A DNA stretch of 41,539 nucleotides, from positions 1 to 41,539 of IMG/VR virus record IMGVR_UViG_3300046168_000016; one strand, 5' to 3'. Under the pieces are notes generated by a model. The model saw only the letters and a list, made by a program, of their open reading frames with translations. It did not search any database and was not told the DNA's origin. Each line of letters opens with the position of its first letter. Within the stretch, counting starts at the first letter, position 1. Made by a program: the position numbers and the translations under genes. The stretch comes from a virus. Of the stretch, positions 6,230 through 26,289 are shown one piece after another.

Positions 6230-8443
6230 ATGGCTAATTTATCTAATATAAATAATAAGTTCATCGTAGCTGATGTTGCAACCGCAACTAGAGTTTCTAT
6301 AGGTATAACTACTACTAATAATTTATTAACTTTATTTGGTACTGGTGCTGGCAATGCAACATTACAAATAGAAGGTGAAGGTGGAGCTGACCCTTATATT
6401 AATTTTTTAGCTAATAATGCACAACATTGGTCTTTAGGTGTTGACGATTCAGATAGTGATAAGTTTAAATTATCTGAACATTCGGCATTAGGTACAAATG
6501 ATTATTTTATTGTTGATACTTCTGGAAAAGTCGGGATCGGGACGACTAATCCTTTTGCAAAACTTGAAGTTACAGGTAATTTATCAAATAATTGGGCAGG
6601 AAGATTTGAAAACACTAATTCAATTGGTTATGGAATTTTAGCAAAAATAAATTCAACAGATTCAAGTGATTATATATTTCAAGCAAGAACAGGAAGTACA
6701 AATGTAATGACTATTTTAGGCGACGGCAACGTCGGGATCGGAACTGATTCGCCTGTTACAAAATTAGAACTTAAAGGTTTGATTGCTGGTAGCGTGACTA
6801 ATGATAGAGAAACTACTACTTCTTCTTTTGTTATTAATGGTATAACTGAAAACATGTCTTTACAGTTTGGCCTTGGTGGTTCAGCTTTAAATTATGGTAA
6901 TTGGATTCAATCTGGTTACGACAATGGTGTACCCACAGCTGCAAGTTTATATTTAAACCCAATTGGAGGAAACGTCGGGATTGGAACGAGTTCGCCTACA
7001 AATGGCAAATTAGAAGTTCAGCAAACTGCAACAACTGCAGGATTATGGGTACAAACTGGAGGAACAACAAATTCTTATACGATAGCAGATTTTAGAACAG
7101 GAACTAATCTTTCTGCACTTGCAATAAAAGGAGATGGAAACTCAACTTTTGCAGGCGAAATTAGAACAGCAAATAGATTAGCAATAAAAGAAACTTATTT
7201 TGGATATTCTTCAGGTTATAAAGTAATTCAAGTTGGAGAAAGTGCTTCTACTAAAGCAATAAGTTTAGGGTATGATCCTTCTGGAAATACAAGTGGTAGT
7301 TTTAGTGGTAATGAAATACTAATACCAAATAATATAAGGGTATTAGCACCTGCTGCGGATAATAGTGGGTACTACGGTTTAATGATGTTAAATAGCAGTA
7401 ATAAAGTACTGCTTGGGTCAAGTAATTATTTAATAGAAAATAATTATATAATGGCTTTAGACCCTGCTACAAAAAACGTAGGAATTGGAACGAATTCGCC
7501 TGAAGAAAAATTACATATTGTAAATGCTGCAAATGCAAGTGTAGATAATTTTATGCTTGAATTACAAAATACAACAACTGTAGCTGATTCAAGGTCAGGA
7601 ATATTATTTTCCACTAATAGTGGCACGGGGTCAAGTAGGGCAGGGTGCGCAATACAAGGTTCAAATAATGGAATTGATGGGACTGGTCATTTACTTTTTG
7701 GTAGTGTTAACAGCAATACTTTTTCAGAAAAAATGCGTATAGACAGTAATGGTAGTATCGGAATGGGTGCAAATAGTGCTGCATATAGATTAAGGGTAAA
7801 ATCTGACGCAACGGTAGATAATGGTATTTATCTAAGTGCAGGAACAGGGAGTGGTAATCACGCTTTGTATGTAGAAAATAAAGATGGAACTGCTGAATTT
7901 TTTGCAGTTAGAGGAGACGGGGAAATTAGATTAAATGCAACAAGTGGGCATACTTACGCCGCTCAAGGAATTAGGTTTGGTGCAAATGCTTCAGCTAATA
8001 ACTTAGACGACTACGAAGAAGGAACTTGGGATCCACAGATTGCTATGTCAGCTTCAACAATATCAGTTTCATACTCTTATAAATTAGGAACTTATACAAA
8101 AATAGGTAGAATGGTAATGGCAATGTTTGATTTGAATGCTACTGTTTCAGGTACTATGTCTGGGTTCGCTAGTGTGAATGGTTTACCTTTTACAGTTGGT
8201 TCTAGCGTAGCAGGTGGTGGTGGAATGGCAGGTTATAGTGTTGCACAATGGAGATCATCAAGTCTTTTTAATGCGGGTGGAGCAAACCAACAAATAAAAG
8301 GGTTTCCAAACCAAAACACCACTTATATATATTGTCAATTAGATGATAGTGGAACTACAGGATTTAGCGGTGGCGCTGGAGCAAGTTGGAAAACTGGAGT
8401 TTTAGGCAGGGTTACAGGTTACACAATGTACTTTGTAAACTAA
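6230..8443 (+). CDS. Tail fibre/adhesin with GNVGIGT repeats, MA(N/K)LSNIN family (737 aa)
   Basis: This founds the second N-terminal family in the cassette: MANLSNINNKF resembles the starts at 8727 and 11436. Four copies of the (G/K)NVGIGT(D/T/N)SP-type repeat are encoded at about 6530, 6731, 6974 and 7478, each followed by a KLE(V/L)- or KLHI-type beta strand. This pattern is common in Bacteroidetes and phage trimeric fibres. The C-terminus differs from the other two family members. It lacks an S74 domain and instead carries a LDDYEEGTWDP motif (near 8004-8036) leading into a ~140-residue Gly/aromatic-rich domain. That motif and domain recur in marine phage tail proteins as I recall them. 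It is probably a receptor-binding fibre. Confidence 0.75.
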   Translation: MANLSNINNKFIVADVATATRVSIGITTTNNLLTLFGTGAGNATLQIEGEGGADPYINFLANNAQHWSLGVDDSDSDKFKLSEHSALGTNDYFIVDTSGKVGIGTTNPFAKLEVTGNLSNNWAGRFENTNSIGYGILAKINSTDSSDYIFQARTGSTNVMTILGDGNVGIGTDSPVTKLELKGLIAGSVTNDRETTTSSFVINGITENMSLQFGLGGSALNYGNWIQSGYDNGVPTAASLYLNPIGGNVGIGTSSPTNGKLEVQQTATTAGLWVQTGGTTNSYTIADFRTGTNLSALAIKGDGNSTFAGEIRTANRLAIKETYFGYSSGYKVIQVGESASTKAISLGYDPSGNTSGSFSGNEILIPNNIRVLAPAADNSGYYGLMMLNSSNKVLLGSSNYLIENNYIMALDPATKNVGIGTNSPEEKLHIVNAANASVDNFMLELQNTTTVADSRSGILFSTNSGTGSSRAGCAIQGSNNGIDGTGHLLFGSVNSNTFSEKMRIDSNGSIGMGANSAAYRLRVKSDATVDNGIYLSAGTGSGNHALYVENKDGTAEFFAVRGDGEIRLNATSGHTYAAQGIRFGANASANNLDDYEEGTWDPQIAMSASTISVSYSYKLGTYTKIGRMVMAMFDLNATVSGTMSGFASVNGLPFTVGSSVAGGGGMAGYSVAQWRSSSLFNAGGANQQIKGFPNQNTTYIYCQLDDSGTTGFSGGAGASWKTGVLGRVTGYTMYFVN

Positions 8444-10933
8444 AATAATTAAAATAAATAAAAACACGATGAGTTTATCAAAAAAAAGAATACAAGATCA
8501 AATAGAAATAGTAGGTGAATACAAAAGTATTCAAGTAAGATATTCAGATCAAATAATTGAAGATGGTAAAGTTATATCAAGTTCTTATTATAGAATAGTT
8601 GTTGATTGCGGTGATGATGCAAAAGCTATTGAACACAATGTAAAAGCTTTAGCTGATATATACTGGACAGATGAAATAAAAGAAGCTTATATAAAAAGTT
8701 TAGAAATAGTAGGTTAAATAAAATAAATGGCAAAATTATCTAATATTAATGGTAAATTTGCGGTTGAAGATACCGGTGCTATAAGATTTAGTGATCAAAC
8801 TGGTACCACAGGCCAGATATTAAAATCAAATGGTAATTCAGCACCAACTTGGGTTGATCCAAATACTGTTGGTACAGGACCTTGGTTACCTTTAGCTGGT
8901 GGTGTAGTTTCTGGCCCTACAACTTTTCAAAGTAGTTTAACCGTTGGTGGGTTATTAACAGGAGCTAACGCAACGTTTAATGGTTTAATGAAGCTTGATG
9001 CTGGAGGTATTTTGCAATTTGCCGCAAATACTACTACACCATCAATGGGTGTTGCTATTCATAGATCAGCAGCTGACACTTTAAATTTTGTTACTGCTTC
9101 AACAAATAGATTAACAATAGATGATGACGGAAACGTCGGAATCGGTATAGACACACCAACTTTAGTTGCAGGAAAAATTGTACATATACATGGAGTAGCA
9201 GCAGGGGTTCATTTAACAGATACAGCTTCAGGAACAACAAGTGGTGATGGTGGTTATGTGGCTTTTGATAATCCAAATTTATATATACAGAATAAAGAAG
9301 CAGGTTCTATGTTTTTTGAAACTAGCGGAACAACTGCTTTAACCATAGACAGTGACGGAGATGCAACCTTTGCAGGAAATGTAACGTCTAACTTTCAAGC
9401 CACTACATCAAGTGGTTCAATTAATATAAATTCTTCAGACCCTACAATTAGATTTAATAGAGTAGGCGGTACAACAGATAAATCTATTTATGAATTAAGA
9501 GCAATTGCAGTGGGCGGAACAAATGATTATTTTCAGTTAAGAAAATGGAATGATGCTCAAACAGTTGCTTCTGAATTAATGAAAATAGACAATTCTGGAA
9601 ACACAACTTTTACAGGAGATGTTAGAATATCTAAAACTGATGCAACATTACAAATTAATAATTCAACAGCAACTTTAACAAATGCTGATTTATATATTTC
9701 AGTTGAAGATACTGGACAAGCAGATGTTAGGCAATATGGTGCATACCCTTTAGCATTTTGGACTAATAATACAGAAAGAGTGCGTATAAACAGCAATGGA
9801 AATTTAAATTTGTTAAACGCAACTTCAACTGATAGTAAACATTTTGGAATAACCAACGCAGCAGGAACTACAGGTTGGACATTTGGCAATGGAGTAATTG
9901 CCAATTCACATCAATTTGTTATTTATGACAATACAGCTGGTGCTGCTAGAATGTTAATAAACAGTTCAGGAAACGTAGGAATCGGAATAACGCCTTTTGC
10001 ACATACATTAGGGACGTCTGCTTCATTGGATTTAAAAGGTAATGGTGGAATATGGGGTTATGCTGGTGCAACTTATGTAAATTCAAATGCTTATTACGAT
10101 AGTGGATGGAAATATAAAACAACAGCTCCAGCAGCGGTTTTACAAGTAGGTGGTTCATCACAGGAATTAACTTTTAGACAAGCGGTAAGCGGAACAGCGG
10201 GTAATGCTATAACATATACTCAACCTTTTACAATAGATACTTCAGGCAAAGTCGGAATCGGTCGAACTGCTCCAGATTATAAATTAGTAATTTCTAATAA
10301 TAATGCTGAAGGAATTGAATTTGGGCCAGGTTATATTTCTGGTTGTAATTTATGGCAAAATTATAATAGAACAACTAGTACATATGTAAAAGAAACGCAT
10401 TATGGTTCTGAATATCATTTTTTACCAGCTGGTGGAGCCACGGGTAACGTCGGGATCGGGGTGACTTCGCCCACTCATAAATTACACGTATATTCAGCTG
10501 TTCCTACTGGAGGTATTGGTTTAAAAGTTGAAAGTGGTAACGTTACAAACTGGATTCAAAATAAAAGCACCGGAAGTAGTTGGCAAATAGGTAGTACAGG
10601 AAGTGGATTTCAGTTGTATAATGATGATACCTCTTCTTATAGATTTATAGTAGAAAATGGTGGAAATGTAGGAATCGGGACGACTTCGCCTGAAACTCAA
10701 TTGTCAATAGGAGATTACACTGATTCTACAGAAACAATTACAATAGCAACCTCAAGTAATGGTACTGGTAGAATAAATTTTTACGATAACAATAATACAG
10801 AAGGAGGTAGTATTAGAGTTGTTGGTGAATTAGGTGGTTCTAAAATGTATTTTTCCAACAGATGGAATACAGATAATGATAGAGTTGTTTTTGATTTAAA
10901 AAACGGAAACGTAGGACTCGGAACGACTTCGCT
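6530..10933 (+). repeat. Dispersed GC-rich 24-bp repeats encoding VGIGT(T/D)SP
   Basis: Inside the fibre genes a short block recurs with unusually GC-rich codons, of the type GTC GGG ATC GGG ACG ACT TCG CCT. Copies start at 6530, 6731, 6974, 7478, 9135, 9975, 10251, 10449, 10668 and 10911, with weaker ones at 11493 and 12233. Elsewhere the window mostly uses GTT/GTA, GGT/GGA, ATA/ATT and ACA/ACT. The blocks therefore stand out as DNA, not only as protein. Confidence 0.75.
8469..8717 (+). CDS. Small conserved-looking protein inserted between two fibre genes (82 aa)
   Basis: This 82-residue mixed-charge protein (MSLSKKRIQDQIEIVGEYKS…) contrasts sharply with the low-complexity fibres on each side. 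It starts at ATG 8469 after an A-rich leader and stops 9 bases before the next fibre. Predicted content is a beta-rich first half and a helical second half (DDAKAIEHNVKALADIYWTDEIKEAYIKSL). I see no signal peptide, membrane segment or known motif. Its position suggests a fibre assembly factor, fibre chaperone or adaptor, but that is only context. Confidence 0.65.
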   Translation: MSLSKKRIQDQIEIVGEYKSIQVRYSDQIIEDGKVISSSYYRIVVDCGDDAKAIEHNVKALADIYWTDEIKEAYIKSLEIVG

Positions 10934-14630: not shown

Positions 14631-15485
14631 ATGTCAAATGCAATTGTAAAAAATCTGAACTTTGGTTCGGATGCTAAAAACAATGTGTTTGCTGGTATTA
14701 CAAAACTTACACAAGCCGTTAGCTCCACACTAGGAGCTAGTGGCAAATGTGTTATGTTGGAAGATAGTACTGGTCAACCTATTATTACAAAAGATGGTGT
14801 AACTGTAGCTGAAGCTATTACACTTCTTGATCCTGTTGAAAACATGGGAGCAACATTACTTAAACAAGCCGCAAAGAAAACTGTTAGTGAAGCAGGTGAT
14901 GGAACCACTACAGCAACCGTATTGGCTCATGCTATACTAAGTGAAGCATACAAAGTAATAACAAAAGAAAACTCAAGAGAAGTAAAAGAAAGTATACTTA
15001 CGGCTACAAACAAAGTAGTTGATTACTTAGATTCTATAGTAACACCAGTAGATGGTGATATGATAGATCAAGTTGCTACAATATCTACAAATAATGATCC
15101 TATACTTGGTAAAATTATTGCAGATGCTTTTAGATCAGTTGATCAAACAGGTGTAGTGATGCTAGAGGTTTCTGATTTACCAGAAACTAATTTTGAAACT
15201 ATTGATGGTGTACAATATGATAGAGGATTAAAAAATATACATTTTGTAACTAATCAAGATACTAAAACAGCTGAACTAGATAAACCTTTAGTTTTAATCG
15301 TAGAGTCAGAGGTTGAAAATGTAAGAAAAATACAAAGTGTTTTAGAGTATGCTATAAAAAATAAAAGAGCATTGCTTATTATTGCTGATGTTGATCAACA
15401 AGTTATGTCAGCTTTAGCAATGAACAAAATAAAAGGTAATATTAAAGTAAATGTTATCGATGCACCCTATTTATGGTGTAAATAA
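14631..15485 (+). CDS. groEL: Phage chaperonin GroEL (Cpn60), N-terminal part (frameshifted)
   Basis: This is the large chaperonin subunit, whose family forms ATP-driven double-ring folding chambers in the cytoplasm. This part holds the equatorial, intermediate and first apical segments. TLGASGKCVML aligns with the TLGPKG region. TKDGVTVA carries Asp55, equivalent to E. coli Asp52, and AGDGTTTATVLA carries the ATP-binding Asp90. NVIDAP then corresponds to VKAPGFG. The frame breaks there. TATTTATGG has one extra T in the run 15470-15472; with TATTATGG the protein reads APYYGVNKKETLEDLALLTG, matching the GroEL consensus, and joins 15451-16188. The restored protein is about 518 aa, against ~548 in E. 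coli. The stop at 15485 is therefore probably artefactual. Confidence 0.9.
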   Translation: MSNAIVKNLNFGSDAKNNVFAGITKLTQAVSSTLGASGKCVMLEDSTGQPIITKDGVTVAEAITLLDPVENMGATLLKQAAKKTVSEAGDGTTTATVLAHAILSEAYKVITKENSREVKESILTATNKVVDYLDSIVTPVDGDMIDQVATISTNNDPILGKIIADAFRSVDQTGVVMLEVSDLPETNFETIDGVQYDRGLKNIHFVTNQDTKTAELDKPLVLIVESEVENVRKIQSVLEYAIKNKRALLIIADVDQQVMSALAMNKIKGNIKVNVIDAPYLWCK

Positions 15486-16188
15486 AAAAGAAACACTAGA
15501 AGATTTAGCGTTACTTACAGGTGCTACAGTTATCAATGAAGATCTTGGAGATGATATTGATTTAATACAACCTGAACAACTTGGTGAATGTAAGAAAACA
15601 ATAACTAGTGAGCATGAAACCATATTACAAGTTCATGAGGTGAGTGAAGAGGTAAAAGATTTAATTGAAGATATAAAAGCTAAACTTAAAACAGCTAAAC
15701 ACCCAGGTATTGTAGTTAATAACGAAAAAAGATTAGCTAGGTTATCAGGTAAAGTTGCTGTTGTAAAAGTTGGTGCTAATTCCGAGGTTGAATTAAAAGA
15801 AAAACGTGATAGAGTTGAAGATGCTATCTGTGCTACTAAAGCTGCTATTAAAGAGGGTATTGTACCTGGTGGTGGTATTGCTTTATTAAACGCATCAGAC
15901 AAAATAGAAACTTCAAACTCTTTAGAAAAAATACTTTTAAGAGCTGTTAAAGCCCCTTTCAATACAATACTTGCTAACGCTGGTATTAAAAATGAAAAGT
16001 TTTTTAATCAAGAAGGTAAAGGTCTAAACGTTGTTACAGGAAATATGGTAAATATGATTGAGTCAGGGATTATTGATCCTTTACTCGTCACAAAAAGTGC
16101 ATTAAAAAATGCTAGCTCTGTGGCTAGAACTATTTTATCAACCGATTGTGTAATTAATAATCTTAGAATTAATGAAAGCAATAGGTAA
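15451..16188 (+). CDS. groEL: Phage chaperonin GroEL (Cpn60), C-terminal part
   Basis: This continues the gene from 14631 after the one-base slip at 15470-15472; the ATG at 15451 is out of frame in the restored gene. Clear GroEL hallmarks are AVVKVGANSEVELKEKRDR, then RVEDAICATKAAIKEGIVPGGGIAL with the hydrolysis Asp of the VEDA motif and the signature Gly triplet. GNMVNMIESGIIDPLLVTKSAL is the conserved pre-C-terminal region. The protein ends soon after CVINNL, so the flexible GGM tail of bacterial GroEL is absent. The end overlaps the groES start by 17 bases, so translation is likely coupled. Divergence from bacterial GroEL looks substantial, consistent with a long phage history rather than recent host capture. 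Confidence 0.9.
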   Translation: MLSMHPIYGVNKKETLEDLALLTGATVINEDLGDDIDLIQPEQLGECKKTITSEHETILQVHEVSEEVKDLIEDIKAKLKTAKHPGIVVNNEKRLARLSGKVAVVKVGANSEVELKEKRDRVEDAICATKAAIKEGIVPGGGIALLNASDKIETSNSLEKILLRAVKAPFNTILANAGIKNEKFFNQEGKGLNVVTGNMVNMIESGIIDPLLVTKSALKNASSVARTILSTDCVINNLRINESNR

Positions 16189-16432
16189 TAATTTAATAGT
16201 AAACATGACAAAACAAGGTGTCTCTGAAACCAAAGGCGGTTTGTTTTTAGCAGAAAAACAACGAGAAGATATAAGATATGCTGAGGGTACTGTATTATCA
16301 GTTGGTAGTAATGTGTCAGGAGTTAATAAAAATGATGTTATTTATTTTGATAAAAATAATACTCATCAAATAGAAATTAAAAAAGAAATATATCAAGTTG
16401 TTAACATAGCACACGTAGTTGTTGTGTTATGA
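16172..16432 (+). CDS. groES: Phage co-chaperonin GroES (86 aa)
   Basis: GroES caps the GroEL chamber as a heptamer. The sequence follows the family end to end: AIGNNLIV for the PLxDRVLV strand, a mobile loop QGVSETKGGLFLAEKQRED with GG-LFL in place of GG-IVL, EGTVLSVG, then NKNDVIYFDK…HQIEIKKEIYQVV and a C-terminal HVVVVL. The segment between LSVG and the ND(V) motif is only about 8 residues, clearly shorter than the ~20 in E. coli. The roof beta-hairpin is therefore missing or minimal, as known for T4 gp31. The order groEL-groES with overlap is reversed from the usual bacterial operon. It also overlaps the next gene by 4 bases. Confidence 0.85.
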   Translation: MKAIGNNLIVNMTKQGVSETKGGLFLAEKQREDIRYAEGTVLSVGSNVSGVNKNDVIYFDKNNTHQIEIKKEIYQVVNIAHVVVVL

Positions 16433-17438: not shown

Positions 17439-17903
17439 ATGAGTGATAGAATAAGTGAACACATCTCGCTTAAAGAAGGAATTAAATCTAACACAGCCAC
17501 TAGGTTAAATATTGACAATACACCTCGTGATTTAGATTTAATTAACATGAAAACTATTGCTGAAAAAGTGTTTGAACCTTTACGTAAATTTGTAGATGGT
17601 CCAATCGCTATTAATAGTTTCTATCGCTCACCCAAATTAAATTCTGCTATTGGCGGAAGTACAACCTCTCAACATTGTATAGGTTGTGCGCTTGACCTAG
17701 ACGACAAGTACGGTCATAAAACTAATGCAGAGATGTATGAGTATATTAAAAATAATTTAGATTACGATCAAATGATTTGGGAGTTTGGAACAGAAAATAA
17801 TCCAGACTGGGTACATGTAAGTTATGTTTCAGAGGATGTTAATAGAAGACGGTGTTTACAAGCTTACAAAGATAATGGTAAAACAAAATACAAAGTAATA
17901 TAA
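17439..17903 (+). CDS. Endolysin-like M15 peptidase (154 aa)
   Basis: This is a probable zinc peptidase that cuts peptidoglycan cross-links during lysis. NSFYRSPKLNSAIGG leads into the M15 motif SxHxxGxAxD at residues 77-86 (Ser77, His79, Gly82, Ala84, Asp86). The C-terminal signature WVHVS holds His126, and a possible catalytic acid, Glu115, lies in IWEFG between them. These are the ligands and acid expected of the M15A family. Length is typical for a single-domain phage M15 enzyme, with no separate wall-binding domain. No signal peptide is visible, so export should depend on the holin, encoded about 2 kb downstream. The stop overlaps the next ATG (TAATG). Confidence 0.85.
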   Translation: MSDRISEHISLKEGIKSNTATRLNIDNTPRDLDLINMKTIAEKVFEPLRKFVDGPIAINSFYRSPKLNSAIGGSTTSQHCIGCALDLDDKYGHKTNAEMYEYIKNNLDYDQMIWEFGTENNPDWVHVSYVSEDVNRRRCLQAYKDNGKTKYKVI

Positions 17904-18190
17904 TGTACAGTCAACAAAATAATCCTTTTTCTCCTCTTGAGAAAAGACTTAGAAAAACAACTAAGGGTAAAGGCAGAAACTTTAGAACAACTAAAGAAGG
18001 TGCTGGTATGACTGCTAAAGGTGTTAAAGAATATAGGAAGAAAAATCCTGGTAGTAAATTAAAAACTGCTGTAACGGGTAAAGTAAAACCTGGTAGTAAA
18101 GCTGCTAAAAGAAGAAAATCATTCTGCGCTAGATCAAAAGGTTGGACCGGTGAAAGAGGTAAAGCTGCTAGAAGAAGGTGGAAATGTTAA
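17903..18190 (+). CDS. Small basic Cys-containing phage protein (95 aa)
   Basis: Highly basic (many Lys/Arg) with a conserved-looking core: GAGMTAKGVKEYRKKNPGSK, then KVKPGSKAAKRRKSFCARS, and a C-terminal RRRWKC. I associate this pattern with a DUF (possibly DUF6321) seen in marine phages and some bacteria; the name is from memory. The basic charge suggests nucleic-acid or DNA-in-capsid binding. The terminal Cys and the FCARS Cys are characteristic. Coupling with the endolysin gene (1-base overlap) does not imply a lytic role. Confidence 0.65.
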   Translation: MYSQQNNPFSPLEKRLRKTTKGKGRNFRTTKEGAGMTAKGVKEYRKKNPGSKLKTAVTGKVKPGSKAAKRRKSFCARSKGWTGERGKAARRRWKC

Positions 18191-18765: not shown

Positions 18766-19209
18766 ATGGGAAAAAAAGGACACACTGTAGGTGGCGGAAT
18801 GCCAGGACCAGGTAAATCAATTATTTCAGGAGGTCATGGAACTGGAAAATATGGACAACCACACAAGTTTTATGACAAAAGTATGGCTAAGTATAAAGGG
18901 CCACACAAAGAATTAAAAGATCTTTCAGGTGATGGTAAAATTACAAAGAAAGATGTTTTAATAGGAAGAGGTGTATTAGAAGGGCCTAAAAAAATGTCAG
19001 GAGAATCTTACGACATGAAACAAGCGTATAATAAAGATCTAACAAAAGGAGCTAGATTTAATTATTTAAAAAATGCTTTACATGATAAAGGTGGTATGAG
19101 CAAATACAAAGCTGAAGGACCTGGTAAAATGAAAAAAGACAAGCAAAAAATATCAAAGCAACAAGATGATGTTTTAGCTGGTATGGGTAAATACAAATGT
19201 GGAAAATAA
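18766..19209 (+). CDS. Gly/Lys-rich protein with one EF-hand-like calcium loop (147 aa)
   Basis: The sequence is rich in Gly, Lys and Met with little hydrophobic core. Residues 52-63 (DLSGDGKITKKD) match the EF-hand/dockerin loop consensus, with ligands Asp52, Ser54, Asp56, the Lys58 backbone, Thr60 and Asp63. VLIGRGVL follows as the exit helix. A single such loop in a disordered Lys-rich protein suggests Ca2+-dependent binding or assembly. An enzyme is unlikely. Similar 'DLSGDGKxTxxDVLxGRGV' proteins occur in marine phages as I recall. A CAA-rich, SD-less leader precedes it, as for groEL. Confidence 0.65.
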   Translation: MGKKGHTVGGGMPGPGKSIISGGHGTGKYGQPHKFYDKSMAKYKGPHKELKDLSGDGKITKKDVLIGRGVLEGPKKMSGESYDMKQAYNKDLTKGARFNYLKNALHDKGGMSKYKAEGPGKMKKDKQKISKQQDDVLAGMGKYKCGK

Positions 19210-19254: not shown

Positions 19255-19542
19255 ATGGCAAAATTTATCTCAATTTATTCATCAGGATCAGGTCTTGATG
19301 GAGGTGACATTCTAGTAGGAGTTCACAGCATCGTAGGTGTTGACGCAGCTTCAGGAACAAGTACAGTTATTAAAATGAATGGCGGTGTATTAGATGAGTG
19401 TACAATTACTCATAGTTCAACAGGAACTACTCCGTCTGTAAGAGACGCGATTAATTATGCATTAACTGCTAACCCAGGTGGTGTAAAAGCTAAAGTAGCT
19501 TTACCCTCAGGAATTACAGTTTCTGACATTGTATTCTCTTAA
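19255..19542 (+). CDS. Small beta-rich virion-type protein (95 aa)
   Basis: Soluble, Gly/Ser/Val-rich and free of Cys: MAKFISIYSSGSGLDGGDIL…SIVGVDAASGTSTVIKMNGG, then a helix SVRDAINYALTANPGG and two more strands. The fold looks compact. A 45-base unstructured CAA/AAATT leader in front and a strong hairpin after the gene are signs of a highly expressed transcript unit. A capsid decoration or cement protein would fit, but I do not recognise the family. Confidence 0.6.
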   Translation: MAKFISIYSSGSGLDGGDILVGVHSIVGVDAASGTSTVIKMNGGVLDECTITHSSTGTTPSVRDAINYALTANPGGVKAKVALPSGITVSDIVFS

Positions 19543-19560
19543 TAATTAATTTATGATATG

Positions 19561-19590
19561 CTGCAGGGTTTATACCCTGCGGCTTTCATT
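19561..19590 (+). terminator. Rho-independent-type terminator hairpin
   Basis: The arms GCAGGGT (19563-19569) and ACCCTGC (19574-19580) make a perfect 7-bp stem with loop TTAT, followed by GGCTTTCATTATT. GC content is high against AT-rich surroundings. It lies after the 95-aa protein and before the HExxH protein, whose ATG is at 19598. Confidence 0.7.
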
Positions 19591-19597
19591 ATTAAGT

Positions 19598-19906
19598 ATG
19601 GCTTTCAAAATTAAACCGTTTTATACTATTAACAATACTTCTATTACGCACATGCCAATGGAAGATAACGTTATGGGTAGAGCTGATAAAAAAGGAAATA
19701 TTCTTTTAAACAAGGATATGAAGAATCCTAAAGATATTAACGATACTATAAACCATGAGCAAGTTCATATTGATCAAATGAAACGAGGTGAACTTTATTA
19801 TGATAATCAAGCTGTTTATTTTAAAGGTAAAAAATATCTAAGAAAAGAGTTTGATGAGTCAAACAAAAAATTACCGTGGGAAGCACCCGCATATAAAGCA
19901 GGTTAA
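19598..19906 (+). CDS. Small HExxH-motif protein, putative minimal metallopeptidase (102 aa)
   Basis: I chose the ATG at 19598. The open frame reaches back to an ATG at 19553, but that would translate through the terminator stem. The key motif is NHEQVHIDQMKRGEL, with HEQVH at residues 53-57: His53 and His57 as zinc ligands and Glu54 as catalytic base. After the motif come basic and aromatic segments (YFKGKKYLRKEFDES…PWEAPAYKAG) that could supply a third ligand. About 100 aa is very small for a zinc peptidase. It is directly followed by the holin gene (2-base gap), so a lysis role or virion protein processing are both possible. Confidence 0.65.
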   Translation: MAFKIKPFYTINNTSITHMPMEDNVMGRADKKGNILLNKDMKNPKDINDTINHEQVHIDQMKRGELYYDNQAVYFKGKKYLRKEFDESNKKLPWEAPAYKAG

Positions 19907-19908
19907 TT

Positions 19909-20361
19909 ATGTCTAAACCTAAAAAAAAATTTAAAGATACTAAGGTAGGAAAATTTCTACTAGGTAAATCAGGTATTATAAATGTAATAGGAGATATATT
20001 ACCTGATCAAGGTGCACTAGGTATGGTTAAAAACCTTATAGACAAGGATGAAGACTTACCACCACAAGACAAAGAAATAGCTCTTAAATTATTAGAGCAA
20101 GATATGACTGAACTACAAGAAATTTCAAAACGTTGGGAAAGCGATATGAAATCAGATAGTTGGTTATCTAAAAACACACGACCAATGACATTGATATTTT
20201 TAACAACATCTCTTGTTATTTTTATTTTGTTAGATGGTTTTGATATAGCATTCAGTATTGATACTGGGTGGATTGATCTTTTAAAATCACTTCTAATAAC
20301 CGTTTATGTTGCCTATTTCGGTTCAAGAGGTGCAGAGAAATTTAAATCAATAGGCAAATAA
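19909..20361 (+). CDS. Holin, 3TM-type family (150 aa)
   Basis: A holin makes the membrane lesion that releases endolysin. The first ~75 residues are basic then amphipathic (LPPQDKEIALKLLEQDMTELQEISKRWESDM). SWLSKNTRPMTLIF then begins a hydrophobic helix at about residues 93-109 (IFLTTSLVIFILL), and a second helix lies at about 121-137 (IDLLKSLLITVYVAYFG). The RWESDMKSDSWLSKNTRP stretch before the first membrane segment is characteristic of the phage 'holin of 3TMs' family as I know it. The short basic C-terminus (GAEKFKSIGK) would be cytoplasmic. It lies about 2 kb from the M15 endolysin. Confidence 0.8.
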   Translation: MSKPKKKFKDTKVGKFLLGKSGIINVIGDILPDQGALGMVKNLIDKDEDLPPQDKEIALKLLEQDMTELQEISKRWESDMKSDSWLSKNTRPMTLIFLTTSLVIFILLDGFDIAFSIDTGWIDLLKSLLITVYVAYFGSRGAEKFKSIGK

Positions 20362-20375
20362 TTAAATTTAATAAA

Positions 20376-20633
20376 ATGAGTGAAGCAAAACAAATGATTA
20401 CCGAAGACCAACTGAAAAAAATTCAAGGCTTTCAAAAAGACTTAAACAAGTTATTAAATGAAGTTGGATTTTTAGAAGCCCAAAAAGCCCAAGTATTAGG
20501 AAAATTTGGTGAAGTCAACAAACAAACTGAAGATTTCAAAAAAGAGTTAGAAAAAGAATACGGATCGATTAACATTAATCTTGAAGACGGATCTTTTGAA
20601 CCTATCGAAAAAGAAGAAGACAAAAAAGAGTAA
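20376..20633 (+). CDS. Coiled-coil small protein (85 aa)
   Basis: A single long helix with heptad-like hydrophobics (QLKKIQGFQKDLNKLLNEVGFLEAQKAQVLGKFGEVNKQTEDF) is followed by an acidic tail (EPIEKEEDKKE). There is no membrane segment. Location after a holin raises the idea of a spanin or antiholin, but neither a signal peptide nor a lipobox is present, so this is not supported. Acidic coiled-coil proteins of this length are common near terminase genes in marine phages as I recall. The stop overlaps the next ATG. Confidence 0.6.
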   Translation: MSEAKQMITEDQLKKIQGFQKDLNKLLNEVGFLEAQKAQVLGKFGEVNKQTEDFKKELEKEYGSININLEDGSFEPIEKEEDKKE

Positions 20634-20860
20634 TGTCATCTGTTATTAGAAAAATTAGCATTGGTTCTGATTATAAAACCGATGCAATGCATTATTCTTT
20701 AGCCCAGTCAGTATATGGAGGTCACACTATATCTCATATACTCTTTGATGCAAAAGATAATTCTTATAACATTTACATTAAAAAACAAGACGAAGTATTG
20801 CCGTGGAAGAAGTTTAATTCTAACATGGCAATCTCCGTTGAGTATGATTTAGAGTATTAA
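20633..20860 (+). CDS. Small hypothetical protein (75 aa)
   Basis: Not recognised. The sequence MSSVIRKISIGSDYKTDAMHYSLAQSVYGGHTISHIL, then DNSYNIYIKKQDEVLPWKKF, looks like a compact alpha/beta domain. It contains several His residues but no recognisable zinc pattern. Overlapping start and stop codons on both sides (TAATG at each junction) place it firmly in the operon between the coiled-coil protein and the GroES-like protein, and argue for coordinated, roughly equal expression. Confidence 0.6.
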   Translation: MSSVIRKISIGSDYKTDAMHYSLAQSVYGGHTISHILFDAKDNSYNIYIKKQDEVLPWKKFNSNMAISVEYDLEY

Positions 20861-21465
20861 TGAAAAGCGTTTTTGATTTTATCGTTGAGCCATTAGGCCA
20901 GCGATATAATAATGAAATTAAAGTAGGTGACAAAAGCCTTATAATTAATACAAAACTTGAAAGCTTTAAGTCAGTAAACAATATAGCAAAAGTTATTCAA
21001 GTTCCTTTAGCTTATAAAACAGTTATTAAAAAAGGTGATAAAGTAATGATTCATCATAATGTTTTTAGAAGGTTTTATAATATTAAAGGTAAAGAAAAAA
21101 ATAGTAAATCTTATTTTAAGGATAATTTATATTTTGTTCAACCAGATCAAATTTATTTATATAAAACAAAAGACAGATGGATGTCGTTTAAAGATAGATG
21201 TTTTATAAATCCTATAAAAAATAATGATAATGTAAACGCTAGTTTAGAGCAAAGCCTTATTGGTATATTAAAATATGGTAATAGTGCATTAGAAGCGCTA
21301 GGAATTAACGAGGGAGATCTTGTAGGTTACAAACCATATGGAGAGTTTGATTTTTTAGTAGATGGTAAGCGTTTATATTGTATGAAATCTAATGATATTG
21401 TAATTAAGTATGAACGTCAAGGAAACGAAACAGAATATAATCCTAGCTGGGCACAAAGCAGTTGA
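20860..21465 (+). CDS. Protein with GroES-like C-terminal half, possibly a tandem GroES-like protein (201 aa)
   Basis: The second half reads like a co-chaperonin: FKDRCFINPI (as DRVLVKP), IGILKYG (as GxVxxVG), INEGDLVGYKPYGEFDFLVDGKRLYCMKSNDIVIKYE (as GDxVxxKxYxGxExxxDGxxYxxxxExDILAxxE). The first half has parallel elements: FIVEPLGQRY, IAKVIQVP, IKKGDKVMIHHN and LYFVQPDQIYLYK. It may therefore be two fused GroES-like folds. No clear GGI(V/F)L mobile loop is visible, so it might have a structural rather than capping role. It sits 4.4 kb from groEL/groES, between lysis and terminase genes. The assignment is pattern-based and unverified. Confidence 0.55.
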   Translation: MKSVFDFIVEPLGQRYNNEIKVGDKSLIINTKLESFKSVNNIAKVIQVPLAYKTVIKKGDKVMIHHNVFRRFYNIKGKEKNSKSYFKDNLYFVQPDQIYLYKTKDRWMSFKDRCFINPIKNNDNVNASLEQSLIGILKYGNSALEALGINEGDLVGYKPYGEFDFLVDGKRLYCMKSNDIVIKYERQGNETEYNPSWAQSS

Positions 21466-21685
21466 GGAATTAATAAAAGTTGCTAAAGAAGCTATTGTTG
21501 ATTCTGATGATGATATATCAGCTGATAGATTAAAAAATGCTGCAGCTACAAAAAAGCTAGCTATATTTGATGCTTTTGAAATACTTAATCGTATTAAAGA
21601 AGAAGAAGATATGTTAAACGATAAACCAAAAGAAGAAAAGAAGAAAGAAGCTTTTGGAGGTTTTGCAGAAAGACGATCTAAATAA
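21410..21685 (+). CDS. Possible small terminase subunit (91 aa)
   Basis: The protein is mostly helical: ETKQNIILAGHKAVEELIKVAKEAIV, then DISADRLKNAAATKKLAIFDAFEILNRIKEEEDML, and a basic/Gly tail (KKKEAFGGFAERRSK). Its last base is the first of the terL ATG (TAATG). Size, helicity and position directly before terL fit a small terminase, but no helix-turn-helix is certain. The start overlaps the GroES-like gene by 56 bases, unusually long here; both frames look meaningful in the overlap, and no other Met lies before residue 68. Confidence 0.55.
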   Translation: MNVKETKQNIILAGHKAVEELIKVAKEAIVDSDDDISADRLKNAAATKKLAIFDAFEILNRIKEEEDMLNDKPKEEKKKEAFGGFAERRSK

Positions 21686-23889
21686 TGTATAAACAAACAT
21701 TATACCAAATAATTGATCACATAAAACCACATGTAATAAAAAGATTAAACAAATCTAAAAAGTGGGAGTATGGTTATAACAAAGAACACGATGTTATTGT
21801 TATATCTAAAACTGGTCAAATAGGTGATATATACGAAATACAAAACTTAAAAATAGCGTTACCAAAAGAAAAAGATGTTGATAAAGAACATGATAGGTGG
21901 AAGCCACATGAGTACCCTAAGACATTAAAAAAGATTAAAACAATATTTGACTGGAAACAATATCCAGATGATTTTAAAGATAAATGGTATGCGTATATTG
22001 ATAGAGAATTTGCCAGGCGCCACGAAGGTTATTGGTTCACTAATAAAGGTAAAGCTACTTATATTACTGGTACTCATTATATGTACTTGCAGTGGTCCAA
22101 GATTGATGTTGGGCAAGCAGACTTTAGAGAAGCAAACAGATTATTCTATATATTCTGGGAAGCTTGCAAGGCAGATACAAGATGTTACGGAATGTGCTAC
22201 CTCAAAAACAGACGGTCTGGTTTTTCATTCATGGCATCTGGTGAAACTGTCAACCTTGCAACCATCTCTAGTGATGCTAGATACGGTGTGTTATCAAAAT
22301 CTGGATCTGATGCAAAAAAAATGTTTACCGATAAAATCGTACCCATATCAGTTAACTACCCTTTTTTCTTTAAACCAATACAAGACGGTATGGACAGGCC
22401 AAAAACCGAGCTTGCATACAGGGTTCCAGCCAGTAGGTTTACAAGAAAAAAATTAGATACTAACGAACAGTTAGAAGAGCTTGAAGGATTAGATACAACT
22501 ATTGACTGGAAAAATACAGGGGATAACAGTTATGATGGTGAAAAATTAAAACTACTTGTACACGATGAATCTGGTAAGTGGGAAAAACCTGACAACATAT
22601 TAAACAACTGGAGGGTTACAAAAACTTGTTTACGATTAGGTTCTAGAATTATAGGTAAGTGTATGATGGGATCAACGAGCAATGCTCTTGACAAAGGTGG
22701 TAGAAACTATAAAAAAATATATGATGACTCAGACGTTACCAGAAGAAACCGCAATGGGCAGACTAGCTCGGGATTATATAGCTTGTTCATACCTATGGAA
22801 TGGAACTACGAAGGATACATTGATTCTTATGGGTTACCTGTCTTCGAGACGCCAGAAAAACCAAAAAAAGGTCCAGACGGTTTCCCAATTGAAATCGGTG
22901 TTATCGAGCACTGGGAAAATGAAGTAGATGGCCTTAAGGATGATCCTGATGCACTTAATGAATTATACAGACAGTTTCCACGTACTGAAAAACACGCTTT
23001 CAGAGATGAAACAAAACAATCTTTATTTAATCTAACTAAGATTTACGAACAAATAGATTATAATGAAGATTTAAAAAATTCTAACGTTGTAACTCAAGGT
23101 AATTTTCAGTGGATTGATGGGATTAAAGATACTAAGGTTCGCTTTGTACCAAGTAAACAAGGTAGATTTTATGTTTCATGGGTACCTAATATGAATCAAC
23201 AAAATAGAGTTGTTATAAAAAATGGTAGAAAGTATCCTGGCAACGAACATATGGGAGCTTTTGGTTGTGACAGTTATGATATATCAGGTACTGTAGATGG
23301 TAGAGGATCAAAAGGTTCTTTACATGGTTTAACTAAGTTTAGCATGGAAGACGCTCCACCAAATTTATTCTTTTTAGAATATATAGCTAGACCTCAGACC
23401 GCAGAAATATTTTTTGAAGATGTACTTATGGCTTGCATATTTTATGGGATGCCAATACTTGCAGAAAATAATAAACCTAGATTATTATACCATTTTAAAC
23501 GTAGAGGTTACAGGGGTTATTCTATGAATAGACCTGATAAAACAATACATAAAATGTCTATAACTGAAAAAGAAATAGGTGGTATACCTAATTCAAGTGA
23601 AGACGTAAAACAAGCTCATGCCGCAGCTATTGAAGCCTACATTGAAATGTTTGTTGGATTTAACAATGAACAATACGGTACAATGTATTTTCAAAGAACA
23701 TTAGAAGACTGGGCGGCATTTGATATAAACAATAGAACAAAACATGATGCATCAATAAGCTCTGGCTTAGCTATCATGGCTTGCAATAAAAATAAATATA
23801 GACCAGTTGCTGATGTTACAAAAGCAAAACTTAATTTAAATTTTGCTAAATATGATAACAAAGGGTTTGAATCAAAAATAATTAATTAG
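21685..23889 (+). CDS. terL: Terminase large subunit (734 aa)
   Basis: This is the packaging motor ATPase and headful/site nuclease. The ATPase half has a Walker-A-like motif LKNRRSGFSF at about residue 173. Walker B is LLVHDESG, with Asp294 and Glu295, followed by a coupling motif MMGSTSN. The nuclease half has GCDSYDISG with Asp529 as a likely first metal ligand, and TKHDASISSGLA with Asp688 as a likely third. At 734 aa it is longer than many TerL proteins, because of ~150 residues before the ATPase (…EHDRWKPHEYP…GYWFTNKGKATYITGTHYMYL). The reading frame is intact. The next gene, portal, begins directly after the stop. Confidence 0.9.
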   Translation: MYKQTLYQIIDHIKPHVIKRLNKSKKWEYGYNKEHDVIVISKTGQIGDIYEIQNLKIALPKEKDVDKEHDRWKPHEYPKTLKKIKTIFDWKQYPDDFKDKWYAYIDREFARRHEGYWFTNKGKATYITGTHYMYLQWSKIDVGQADFREANRLFYIFWEACKADTRCYGMCYLKNRRSGFSFMASGETVNLATISSDARYGVLSKSGSDAKKMFTDKIVPISVNYPFFFKPIQDGMDRPKTELAYRVPASRFTRKKLDTNEQLEELEGLDTTIDWKNTGDNSYDGEKLKLLVHDESGKWEKPDNILNNWRVTKTCLRLGSRIIGKCMMGSTSNALDKGGRNYKKIYDDSDVTRRNRNGQTSSGLYSLFIPMEWNYEGYIDSYGLPVFETPEKPKKGPDGFPIEIGVIEHWENEVDGLKDDPDALNELYRQFPRTEKHAFRDETKQSLFNLTKIYEQIDYNEDLKNSNVVTQGNFQWIDGIKDTKVRFVPSKQGRFYVSWVPNMNQQNRVVIKNGRKYPGNEHMGAFGCDSYDISGTVDGRGSKGSLHGLTKFSMEDAPPNLFFLEYIARPQTAEIFFEDVLMACIFYGMPILAENNKPRLLYHFKRRGYRGYSMNRPDKTIHKMSITEKEIGGIPNSSEDVKQAHAAAIEAYIEMFVGFNNEQYGTMYFQRTLEDWAAFDINNRTKHDASISSGLAIMACNKNKYRPVADVTKAKLNLNFAKYDNKGFESKIIN

Positions 23890-25716
23890 ATGATTAATAC
23901 TAGTGTTAACAGCGCATTTCCAAGTCAGATGGTATCTGAGGAAGAAAAGAAAAGTTTAGAGTATGGTTTGCTAGTTGGGCAAGCTATTGAATATGAGTGG
24001 TTTAGAGGCGGAAAAGTTAATAGTAACAAATGGCAAACAGGTTATCAAAATTATAACAGGCTAAGATTATATGCTAGAGGAGAACAATCTGTTCAAAAAT
24101 ATAAAGACGAATTATCTGTTAATGGTGATTTGTCTTATTTAAATTTAGACTGGAAGCCAGTTCCAATTATACCTAAGTTTGTAGATATAGTAACAAATGG
24201 TATTGCATCTAAAGATTATGAATTAAAGGCTTATGCTCAAGATCCTTTTTCTTTAAAACAAAGAACTGATTATGTAGGCGGTATATATAGAGATATGATG
24301 GGTCAAGAATATCTTGATGAAATAGAACAGACTACAGGAATGAATTTATATAATTCTGATAAAAAAACATTACCACAATCAAAAGAAGAATTAGAAATAC
24401 ACATGCAATTAAACTACAAGCAGTCTGTAGAAATTGCTGAAGAAGAAGCTATAAATAATACGTTAGCATTTAATAAATATCAATTGACTAAAAAAAGATT
24501 AGTAGATGATATTGTTACAATTGGTATTGGTGCTGTAAAAACTAGTTTTAACAAATCTGAAGGAGTTGTTGTAGATTATGTAGATCCTGCTAATTTAGTT
24601 TATTCTTATACTAATGATCCTAATTTTGAAGATATATATTACGTTGGTGAAATTAAATCTTTAACATTAGCTGAAATAAAAAAACAATTTCCTTATTTAA
24701 CAGAAGACGAATTACAAAGATTAGTAAAATATCCTGGTCGTCAAGGTTATATAGCTCAACCAAACTACGATAATGATTTAGTTCAAGTATTATATTTTGA
24801 ATACAAAACTTTCGTTGATCAAGTATTTAAAATAAAAAAGACTGATCAAGGTTTAGAAAAAGCTTTAGTAAAATCAGATACTTTTAATCCTCCACAAAGT
24901 GATAATTTTGATAGAGTTTCAAGAAGTATTGAAGTTTTATTTAGTGGTTGTAAAGTTATGGGCGTTCCACAAATGTTAGAGTGGAAGTTAGCTGAAAATA
25001 TGACAAGACCTAAAAGTGATTTAACTAAAGTTAATATGAATTATGCTATATGTGCACCTCATATGTACCAAGGTCGCGTAGAATCGCTTGTAAGCCGTAT
25101 TACTGGTTTTGCTGATATGATACAATTAACGTCATTAAAATTACAACAAGTAATTGCAAGGATGGTACCAGATGGTGTATTTGTAGATGTAGATGGTTTA
25201 GCAGAGGTTGATTTAGGCAACGGAACAAATTATAATCCACAAGAAGCTTTAAACATGTATTTCCAAACTGGTAGCATAGTTGGTAGAAGCTTAACACAAG
25301 ATGGTGATCCTAATAGAGGCAAAGTACCTATTCAAGAATTACAATCATCTAGTGCAAACGGAAAAATAGCATCACTTGTAAATACTTACCAGTATTATTT
25401 ACAAATGATTAGAGACGTAACAGGTCTTAATGAAGCAAGAGACGGCAGTTTACCAGACAAAGACGCATTGGTCGGATTGCAAAAAATGGCTGCCAATGCT
25501 TCAAATATAGCTACTAAACATATTGTAGATGCGAGTTTGTATTTAACATTAAGAGCTTGTGAAAACATTTCATTACGATTAGCTGATGCTTTGGAATTTG
25601 ATTTAACTAAACAAGCGTTAATGCAAAGTATTTCATTAACTAATACACAAAATTTAGAAGAATTAAAAAATCTTCATTTATATGATTTTGGTATTTACTT
25701 AGAACTTAGAGCCTGA
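23890..25716 (+). CDS. Portal protein, main part (frameshifted near the C-terminus)
   Basis: The portal is the dodecameric ring at the capsid vertex through which DNA passes. The 608 residues begin directly after terL. They include ARGEQSVQKYK, WKPVPIIPKFVDIVTNGI, DYVDPANLVYSY, a long helix-rich clip/stem region, and MIRDVTGLNEARDGSLPDKDALVGLQKMAANASN, the crown-like helix typical of short-tailed phage portals. The frame ends artificially at 25716. One extra base at about 25708 separates it from EPDDEEKAMLEQNIQ, and a further missing base near 25810 leads into the Gln-rich tail ending at 26289. The restored protein is about 799 aa. Confidence 0.85.
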   Translation: MINTSVNSAFPSQMVSEEEKKSLEYGLLVGQAIEYEWFRGGKVNSNKWQTGYQNYNRLRLYARGEQSVQKYKDELSVNGDLSYLNLDWKPVPIIPKFVDIVTNGIASKDYELKAYAQDPFSLKQRTDYVGGIYRDMMGQEYLDEIEQTTGMNLYNSDKKTLPQSKEELEIHMQLNYKQSVEIAEEEAINNTLAFNKYQLTKKRLVDDIVTIGIGAVKTSFNKSEGVVVDYVDPANLVYSYTNDPNFEDIYYVGEIKSLTLAEIKKQFPYLTEDELQRLVKYPGRQGYIAQPNYDNDLVQVLYFEYKTFVDQVFKIKKTDQGLEKALVKSDTFNPPQSDNFDRVSRSIEVLFSGCKVMGVPQMLEWKLAENMTRPKSDLTKVNMNYAICAPHMYQGRVESLVSRITGFADMIQLTSLKLQQVIARMVPDGVFVDVDGLAEVDLGNGTNYNPQEALNMYFQTGSIVGRSLTQDGDPNRGKVPIQELQSSSANGKIASLVNTYQYYLQMIRDVTGLNEARDGSLPDKDALVGLQKMAANASNIATKHIVDASLYLTLRACENISLRLADALEFDLTKQALMQSISLTNTQNLEELKNLHLYDFGIYLELRA

Positions 25717-26289
25717 TGATGAAGAAAAAGCTATGCTAGAGCAAAATATACAAGTAGCTTTGCAAGCAGGTCAAATATACCTTGAAGATGCTATTGATAT
25801 TAGAGAAGTTAAAAATATACATTAGCTAATCAAATATTAAAATACAGAAGAATCCAAAAACAAAAACAAGATCAAGCTGCACAACAACAGCAGATACAAG
25901 CTCAAGCACAAGCCAATATGCAAGCTTCTGAACAGGCGGCTATGAATGAAGTTCAAAAACAAGAAGCTTTAGCTAATACTGAAATACAGATAGAGCAAGC
26001 TAAATCTCAATTTGAAATACAAAGAATGGAACAAGAAGCTATGATTAAAAAACAATTAATGGCTGAAGAATTCAACTATCAATTACAATTAGCTCAAGCT
26101 AAAATAAATACCGATAGACAAAAAGAACAGTTCATAGAAGATCGTAAAGACAAAAGAACTAAAATACAAGCAACACAACAATCAAAAATGATTGAACAAC
26201 GTCAAAATGATTTATTACCTACAGATTTTGAATCGGCTGGTAATGATAATCTAGACGGATTTGGTTTAGAGCAGTTTTCACCTCAATAA
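25709..26289 (+). CDS. Portal protein, C-terminal Gln-rich tail (frameshifted fragments)
   Basis: Two pieces complete the portal. Positions 25709-25824 encode EPDDEEKAMLEQNIQVALQAGQIYLEDAIDIREVK in a second frame. From about 25815 to 26289 the frame returns to that of the portal and gives LANQILKYRRIQKQKQDQ, then a Gln/Ala-rich coiled coil and a tail ending GLEQFSPQ. The longest ATG-initiated piece is 25918-26289. Its heptad-rich, Gln-dense sequence fits the barrel or coiled-coil extension of a portal. It could be an independent scaffold-like gene, but it lacks its own leader. Confidence 0.7.

Follow-up and report, generated by a model that had tools for sequence, protein, structure and literature searches.

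A 102-residue candidate zinc peptidase encoded beside the holin gene of a marine bacterial virus

The locus and the 102-residue gene

A gene for a protein of 102 residues lies beside the holin gene in the genome of a marine bacterial virus. We studied this gene within a stretch of 41,539 nucleotides (hereafter, the window), in which the original prediction, made from the letters alone, had placed it at 19598-19906 between a terminator and the holin and had noted an HEQVH motif. When the sequence was re-read, the coordinates, the length of 102 aa, and the motif (NHEQVHIDQMKRGEL) were all exact. The gap to the holin is 2 bases as predicted (the last base of the stop codon is 19906 and the first base of the holin ORF is 19909), and the predicted location was confirmed by a hairpin at 19560-19583 upstream and a holin of PHROG 3427 downstream. 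The mechanically defined ORF opens at 19553, 15 codons earlier; the relatives begin at the ATG at 19598 (MAFK...). The features of the locus are as follows.

17439..17903, + strand: Peptidase M15 endolysin gene (PF08291, E 2.6e-13; PHROG 894, E 5.6e-29)
17903..18190, + strand: DUF6321 basic protein of the block (PF19846, E 3.9e-11)
18766..19209, + strand: Gly/Lys-rich low-complexity block protein with one EF-hand-like loop (sequence, neighbourhood comparison)
19255..19542, + strand: small upstream protein, whose family occurs in 77 of 138 peptidase-bearing loci (locus clustering)
19560..19583, + strand: terminator-like hairpin with a 10-pair stem, before the peptidase gene (hairpin scan)
19598..19906, + strand: gene for the 102-aa probable minimal gluzincin-type zinc peptidase (conservation, model, dN/dS)
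19598..19612, + strand: N-terminal MAFKI, conserved in the clade (alignment of relatives)
19754..19768, + strand: HEQVH, residues 53-57, with the proposed zinc ligands H53 and H57 and the proposed general base E54 (conservation, helix 44-63 of the model)
19880..19882, + strand: E95 in PWE-x-x-A, the proposed third zinc ligand (conservation, first residue of helix 95-101)
19909..20361, + strand: holin gene, 2 bases downstream of the peptidase gene (PHROG 3427, E 4.6e-19)
20860..21465, + strand: GroES-like protein of 201 aa, used as an independent seed for peptidase presence (PHROG 13932, E 6e-27)
21685..23889, + strand: terminase large subunit, the query for related viruses (PHROG 6681, E 1.2e-162)

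The hairpin scan gave two terminator-like sites in 1.2 kb, compared with 0.5 in shuffled sequences. In the stem of the hairpin before the peptidase gene, a double change from G-C to A-T was read by eye in two relatives (L002 and L004). The hairpin also resembles DNA inside a 51-aa ORF (GLNIPCGC...) that directly precedes the peptidase gene in 84 loci, and the hairpin in the window may be a remnant of the gene for that ORF.

Of the 44 window ORFs with 60 aa or more, one contains HExxH, with 0.115 expected from residue shuffling, and the motif of the 102-aa protein is not due to chance. The dN/dS of the gene was 0.07-0.26 against 10 relatives; dS exceeded 1 in six of the ten comparisons, and those six values are rough. 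The Pfam matches up to E 1 numbered five; none reached the cut-off, and three were to metallopeptidase families (Tox-MPTase2, 0.014; DUF6782, 0.077; M76, 0.19). NCBIfam gave no match, and no lysis family in Pfam, PHROG, or NCBIfam matched the protein. The profiles of PHROG 16532 (E 1e-07, residues 35-99) and PHROG 10499 (E 4.5e-07, residues 36-100) both matched over a region that spans HExxH and PWE-x-x-A; PHROG 87, named 'metallo-protease', gave no match to the window protein at E 1. Neither a signal peptide nor a membrane segment was seen by eye.

Conserved residues and the predicted fold

Relatives were collected by an initial scan of viral contigs (50 loci), a profile scan (at least 411 confirmed stretches, 80 kept), and a scan with the form from Caulobacter phage Cr30 (at least 559 confirmed stretches, 80 kept). 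Phage Cr30 and Ochrobactrum phage OspM_OC carry distant relatives; when viral contigs were scanned with the Ochrobactrum phage form, no stretch was confirmed. In an alignment of 33 members (A1), which comprised the window and 32 of the 50 loci from the first scan, near-duplicates and the incomplete L048 and L050 being left out, nine columns were invariant: I35, H53, E54, H57, Q60, G64, Y68, E95, and A98. In a 32-member alignment that reached down to about 19% identity, only H53, E54, H57, and E95 were invariant, and the same four were the sole invariant columns among 139 sequences (A4; 120 of the 126 selected references, the window, and 18 T4-like sequences).

We also examined 238 distinct sequences, namely 147 of the window's clade, 21 fused to a long tail (described below), and 70 labelled T4-like. 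These came from 288 matched sources out of 314, with L051, L054-L056, and L208-L212 skipped; the 26 sources without a match were L187, L202, and 24 loci found with the GroES-like seed that have less than 4 kb upstream. H53, E54, H57, and E95 were not replaced in any of the 238 relatives, each column having one or two gap rows; E95 was kept in 237, with one gap. In L050 (5529-5770), the peptidase copy is broken into two frames in the HExxH region, the first piece ending after HEKV, and this copy was scored as a gap in the H57 column. Q60 was replaced in the fused set. The original prediction had regarded HEQVH as a zinc-protease motif in a minimal protein and had named poor conservation of H, E, or H as the observation that would speak against it. 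Poor conservation was not seen in the 238 relatives, and the zinc-protease type of the motif is borne out by the conservation of H53, E54, and H57 together with the downstream E95.

The AlphaFold2 model from the 139 sequences had a pLDDT of 86.6 and a pTM of 0.73. The 102 residues form one predicted domain, of the size of a stand-alone zincin of about 100 residues, in which strands are followed by a helix carrying HExxH (44-63), more strands, and a helix that starts at E95 (95-101). HExxH on a helix with a Glu on the next helix is, in this model, the gluzincin layout. Structure prediction had been proposed as a check for a third zinc ligand, and it yields the conserved E95, at the start of the following helix, as the candidate. 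The original prediction would also have been weakened by a motif buried far from any metal site; the layout of the predicted fold is instead that of a zincin.

Foldseek against solved structures gave no match below E 0.001, and its top seven matches (E 0.05-0.27) were to IrrE/PprI, selecase, and abylysin. The top match in VIA-align was IrrE (3dte), with a modest Z of 6.2, below 8 (rmsd 3.5 over 84 residues, 6-102 versus 28-120). Next, at Z 4.2-6.1, were PprI, SPRTN, a Mycobacterium transcriptional regulator (Z 4.7), ArdC, abylysin, Wss1, and selecase. Although a Z below 8 can mean a mere common arrangement, the protein is probably a true zincin, because the leading matches are mostly zincins of different kinds and the conserved residues fall at zincin positions. 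When the first model was compared with the viral predicted structures of BFVD, the best match (E 1.6e-10, TM 0.87) was to a protein of 301 aa from an uncultured virus, and the first eight matches included three phage proteins named SprT-like (E 4e-05 to 4e-04). Sequence-based searches of solved structures gave nothing convincing, either with the single sequence P0001 (best E 0.8) or with profiles (best E 0.1 for A2 and 0.12 for A3).

The peptidase domain of IrrE/PprI (M78) is thus the best solved-structure match of the window protein, and if the last helix is aligned without gaps, E95 falls on residue 113 of IrrE, which is presumably a zinc ligand. However, the window protein has no PF06114 (M78) match up to E 1 and no room for helix-turn-helix or sensor domains. 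The minigluzincins (abylysin, jannalysin, and selecase) share the size of about 100 aa and the zincin layout (4jiu, Z 4.3; 4qhf, Z 4.2), but they are archaeal and are absent from the sequence matches of the window protein up to E 10. SprT-like/SPRTN and Wss1 are among the fold matches (6mdx, SPRTN, Z 4.8; 5xbn, Z 4.3), but the window protein has no PF10263 match up to E 1 and no room for a DNA-binding or zinc-ribbon part. The M15 endolysin is a different protein, encoded by the separate ORF at 17439; neither PF08291 nor an endolysin PHROG matches the 102-aa protein. According to Iyer et al. 2017 (PMC5512222), the zincin-like MPTase domains of polyvalent proteins likewise have HExxH on one helix and a Glu on the next; they belong to phage proteins, some of which are packaged, and were proposed to process packaged or injected proteins. 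Those domains sit in large multidomain proteins, whereas the window form is a free-standing single domain. In literature searches on minigluzincins, SprT-like phage or HExxH virion metalloproteases, and crAss zincins, the family was absent from the titles and abstract openings of the matches listed.

Gene order, fusion, and distribution

We compared the neighbourhoods of 138 loci, including the window; this set was selected by the peptidase itself and is not a measure of its frequency. The usual order is GroEL, GroES, a variable block, the peptidase, the holin, the genes corresponding to 20376 and 20633, the GroES-like gene, and the terminase. Of the 130 loci having an upstream neighbour, 127 have it on the strand of the peptidase gene, and the downstream neighbour shares this strand in 136 of 138. 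A holin family of 150 aa is present in 116 loci and another family of 126 aa, read as holin-like from its sequence, in 16, never both. In 56 of the 138 loci, the peptidase gene is directly followed by a member of the holin family, at a distance of 2 bases in 19 of the 56, and up to five genes lie between the peptidase and the holin in some loci. M15 is present in 20 and absent in 53 of 73 full blocks. As there are two holin-like families, and blocks with or without M15, the peptidase appears to be tied to the block and not to one lysis partner.

In the 53 loci without M15, the block has 87 unassigned clusters with a length of 90 aa or more; three longer clusters were set aside, and an endolysin was sought among the other 84. 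These 84 proteins matched 8 Pfam and 28 PHROG families, most of the proteins matching nothing, and no endolysin was found among the 8 Pfam families and the 25 of 28 PHROG families listed. Several of the listed PHROG families are tail fibre, tail spike, or virion structural families with one or two members each, and the accessory block can be read, weakly, as a virion block.

Several other properties of the region were observed. The protein at 18766-19209 has a single EF-hand/dockerin-like loop (DLSGDGKITKKD), and comparable single loops (DLDKDGKLNKYE) are seen again in proteins encoded in the blocks of other loci (overall, 28 of 2377 ORFs have one). The DUF6321 protein (17903-18190) ends in a Cys/Arg-rich motif, RRKSFCARSKGW...RRRWKC, and matches the C-terminal part of much longer PHROG profiles. 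GroEL (14631-16188) lies in two overlapping frames of 284 and 245 aa, and in many relatives it is one ORF of about 518 aa; the portal ORF is also interrupted (23890-25716 and 25918-26289). These breaks are either frame errors in the record or real breaks. GroEL is accompanied by two small GroES-type genes, at 16172-16432 (named from its sequence and place) and 20860-21465, and the family of the latter lies beside the terminase in 120 of the 138 peptidase-bearing loci. The 75-aa protein at 20633-20860 is about 75-92% identical in most of the listed loci, above most of its neighbours.

In 31 contigs, and additionally in L141 from a genome bin, the peptidase domain is fused to a long low-complexity tail. 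The fused proteins have 327-679 residues, and one of 315 residues ends at a contig edge. HExxH (as HEDxH) and E95 were kept in all 21 distinct fused sequences. The holin family then follows in all 14 fused loci printed, and DUF6321 was recognised before the fusion in five of the 14. Three tails that were examined were Lys- and Gly-rich, and the tail of L141, the one fused example scanned, had no Pfam or PHROG match. When 12 of the 31 tails were searched against neighbouring proteins of other loci, seven matched the L141 tail, six of them over 53-88 residues only, and no separate block protein matched any of the 12. The idea that the fusion points to the substrate was dropped on the basis of these 12 tails.

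The T4-like relatives differ in several respects. PHROG 16532 and 10499, phage families whose function is not named, have longer profiles (138 and 149 positions) that include an additional N-terminal region, whereas the window form has 102 aa, a MAFK start, and a different gene setting. In the T4-like set (A2), all 33 members matched both of these families, 10 matched PHROG 87 'metallo-protease' (best E 5.5e-05), nine matched DUF6782, five matched SprT-like (PF10263) weakly (up to E 0.01), and one matched PF06114 (M78; E 0.0082). The domain lies in an ORF of 101-189 aa in 74 of 79 T4-like loci. Four neighbour clusters are each present in 16-17 of the 79 loci, and we take them to be UvsX, helicase, polymerase, and deaminase; another, presumably the clamp loader, is present in eight. 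Where the T4-like neighbours could be read, they included neither a virion gene cluster nor lysis genes, so that the family cannot be called a virion family in its entirety.

A terminase search gave 87 records; among the matches listed were one uncultured podovirus at 63% identity and phages of Flavobacterium, Maribacter, Cellulophaga, and Tenacibaculum at 30-45%. The passages found by term in a Flavobacterium phage paper (PMC7077304) contain nothing on virion proteins. In Pfam, the ORF at 37940-38851 matched the crassvirus muzzle families PF25731 and PF25729 above the cut-off, and the 41.5-kb record is therefore related to Crassvirales. Six relatives share the terminase-portal order of the window (L054, L056, and L208-L211), and a profile search of the regions fetched from them gave no copy of the peptidase. 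When the whole phage collection was searched with the protein at E values up to 1, only Cr30 (two records) and OspM_OC were found.

The GroES-like seed (20860) gave at least 80 loci, of which 80 were kept; 15 were already known with the peptidase gene. The 65 new loci comprised 39 with the gene, 24 without it but with less than 4 kb upstream, and two without it. If only new loci with 4 kb or more of upstream sequence are counted, the gene is present in 28 of 30 (11 of the 39 positive loci have less than 4 kb and were left out), and in 34 of 36 when the previously known loci are included; several of the seeded loci are on contigs already in the set (e.g., L144 and L061), so that the counts are not independent. 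The two negative loci, L187 and L202, have 7-8 kb upstream. In L202, the block is missing entirely from the GroEL region to 20376, and L187 keeps DUF6321 but is without the holin, 19255, and 18766 families. Within one clade of Bacteroidetes-type podophages, the peptidase is encoded by a near-core gene.

Possible roles of the peptidase

Judging from the conserved residues and the model, the 102-aa ORF very probably encodes an active minimal zinc peptidase, in which H53, H57, and E95 would hold zinc and E54 would activate water. The gene is set in an accessory block between GroEL/GroES and the terminase, whose genes encode DUF6321, low-complexity proteins rich in Gly, Lys, Ser, and Pro, and some proteins that look fibre- and virion-protein-like. 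Our preferred reading, with a probability of about 0.4, is that a catalytically competent gluzincin-type peptidase processes or acts on the flexible accessory proteins of this block, either during assembly or after ejection. Such a peptidase would be expressed late and may be located in the virion. In a sister group, the peptidase domain itself forms the head of such a flexible chain. The two loci without the peptidase, L187 and L202, are also without much of the block. Few members of the block account for its virion matches, which lowers our confidence in the processing of block proteins. By analogy, the polyvalent-protein zincins described in PMC5512222 offer a precedent for phage zincins that may act on packaged or injected proteins.

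If the processing of block proteins is correct, a widespread, unnamed family of phage peptidases gains an enzymatic identity, and the near-core minimal form in Bacteroidetes-type phages would be an easy test case for a protease dedicated to accessory or ejected proteins. Such a phage protease would act outside classical head maturation. With 102 residues, it would be among the smallest zinc peptidases and useful for enzymology.

The original prediction considered a second lysis enzyme, and a protease co-expressed with the holin might cut the envelope or a lysis protein so that lysis proceeds. The holin family next to the gene in 56 of 138 loci (2 bases off in 19), the M15 endolysin nearby in the window, and the 53 of 73 full blocks that lack M15 and have no endolysin among the listed families of the 84 block proteins are consistent with such a role in lysis or its timing. 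However, the endolysin of the M15-less loci may lie outside the block, and the peptidase is retained whichever of the two holin-like families is present (116 and 16 loci, with no overlap), with or without M15, and with up to five intervening genes. Together with the lack of a lysis family match, of a signal peptide or membrane segment by eye, and of lysis genes among the readable T4-like neighbour clusters, these observations leave the second lysis enzyme without support, and we consider a role in lysis unlikely. A DNA-linked or host-directed protease of the SprT/Wss1/IrrE kind, which would free DNA of proteins or cleave a host regulator, is also doubtful. It would agree with the closest folds (IrrE/PprI, then SPRTN and Wss1 among others), with the T4-like neighbour clusters that we read as UvsX, helicase, polymerase, and deaminase, and with the weak SprT-like matches in five of 33 T4-like members. 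In the window's clade, however, the gene sits between fibre genes and the terminase, the protein is without the T4-like N-terminal region and has no room for a DNA-binding part, and the window protein gave no SprT-like or M78 match in Pfam up to E 1.

Maturation of the capsid or scaffold by a prohead protease had been thought conceivable, and no peptidase family was found in the ten structural ORFs scanned with Pfam. Prohead proteases are encoded with the portal, scaffold, and capsid and have a serine-protease fold. The gene studied here lies upstream of the terminase, not between the portal and the capsid, and the product has a predicted zincin layout. No copy occurs in the fetched regions of the six relatives, close copies in the phage collection are only those of Cr30 and OspM_OC, and the main text of a crassvirus structure paper, on a related order, contains neither 'cleav' nor 'protease'. 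From its position and from the six relatives, capsid maturation is not supported, and we regard it as very unlikely. The suggestion of a pseudo-enzyme, or of a structural protein that keeps the motif by descent, is hardly credible, as E54, the proposed catalytic residue, and the three proposed ligands are the positions that stay unchanged, whereas identity elsewhere in the protein falls to about 20%.

The N-terminal MAFKI deserves separate mention. F3 was present in 139 and K4 in 129 of the 147 clade sequences, and each in 20 of the 21 fused forms; in the T4-like relatives the start is mostly not alignable, the MAFK columns being gapped in 55-59 of 70. A start of the form M[AGSP]F[KQNIT][LIMV] was found in at least 30% of the members of 16 ORF clusters, the peptidase included. 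Some of the other 15 clusters look mutually related and not all are independent; most are low-complexity and near the peptidase. Eleven of 346 cluster representatives match the pattern, which was composed after the sequences had been seen, compared with 1.67 expected (sd 1.3; highest 6 in 500 shuffles). The tagged ORFs numbered 43, of which 23 lie one to three genes after the peptidase, seven lie one to five genes before it, and 13 were not placeable. On reading, the DNA upstream of the tagged ORFs does not look copied. The window has no MAFK-tagged neighbour, nine other fetched phage regions gave two matches only (both on the minus strand of L208), and two tagged neighbours searched in the phage collection gave no matches. 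The shared short starts may come from translation preference or undetected common descent. T4 internal proteins carry a capsid-targeting sequence. By analogy, MAFK[LIM] might be a packaging or ejection tag that loads the peptidase and flexible partners into one particle, where the peptidase would trim them or ready them for ejection; we think this quite unlikely.

One tagged protein of 302 aa (L022, 7242) was considered as a cysteine-peptidase-like cell-wall enzyme; this reading was rejected because neither Pfam nor PHROG gave a match up to E 0.01. Adjoining the 302-aa tagged protein in L022 is a DUF4846 protein (8165-8896; PF16138, E 1.1e-49) with a likely signal peptide, and the DUF4846 family and the 302-aa tagged family each occur in 12 of the 73 full-block loci.
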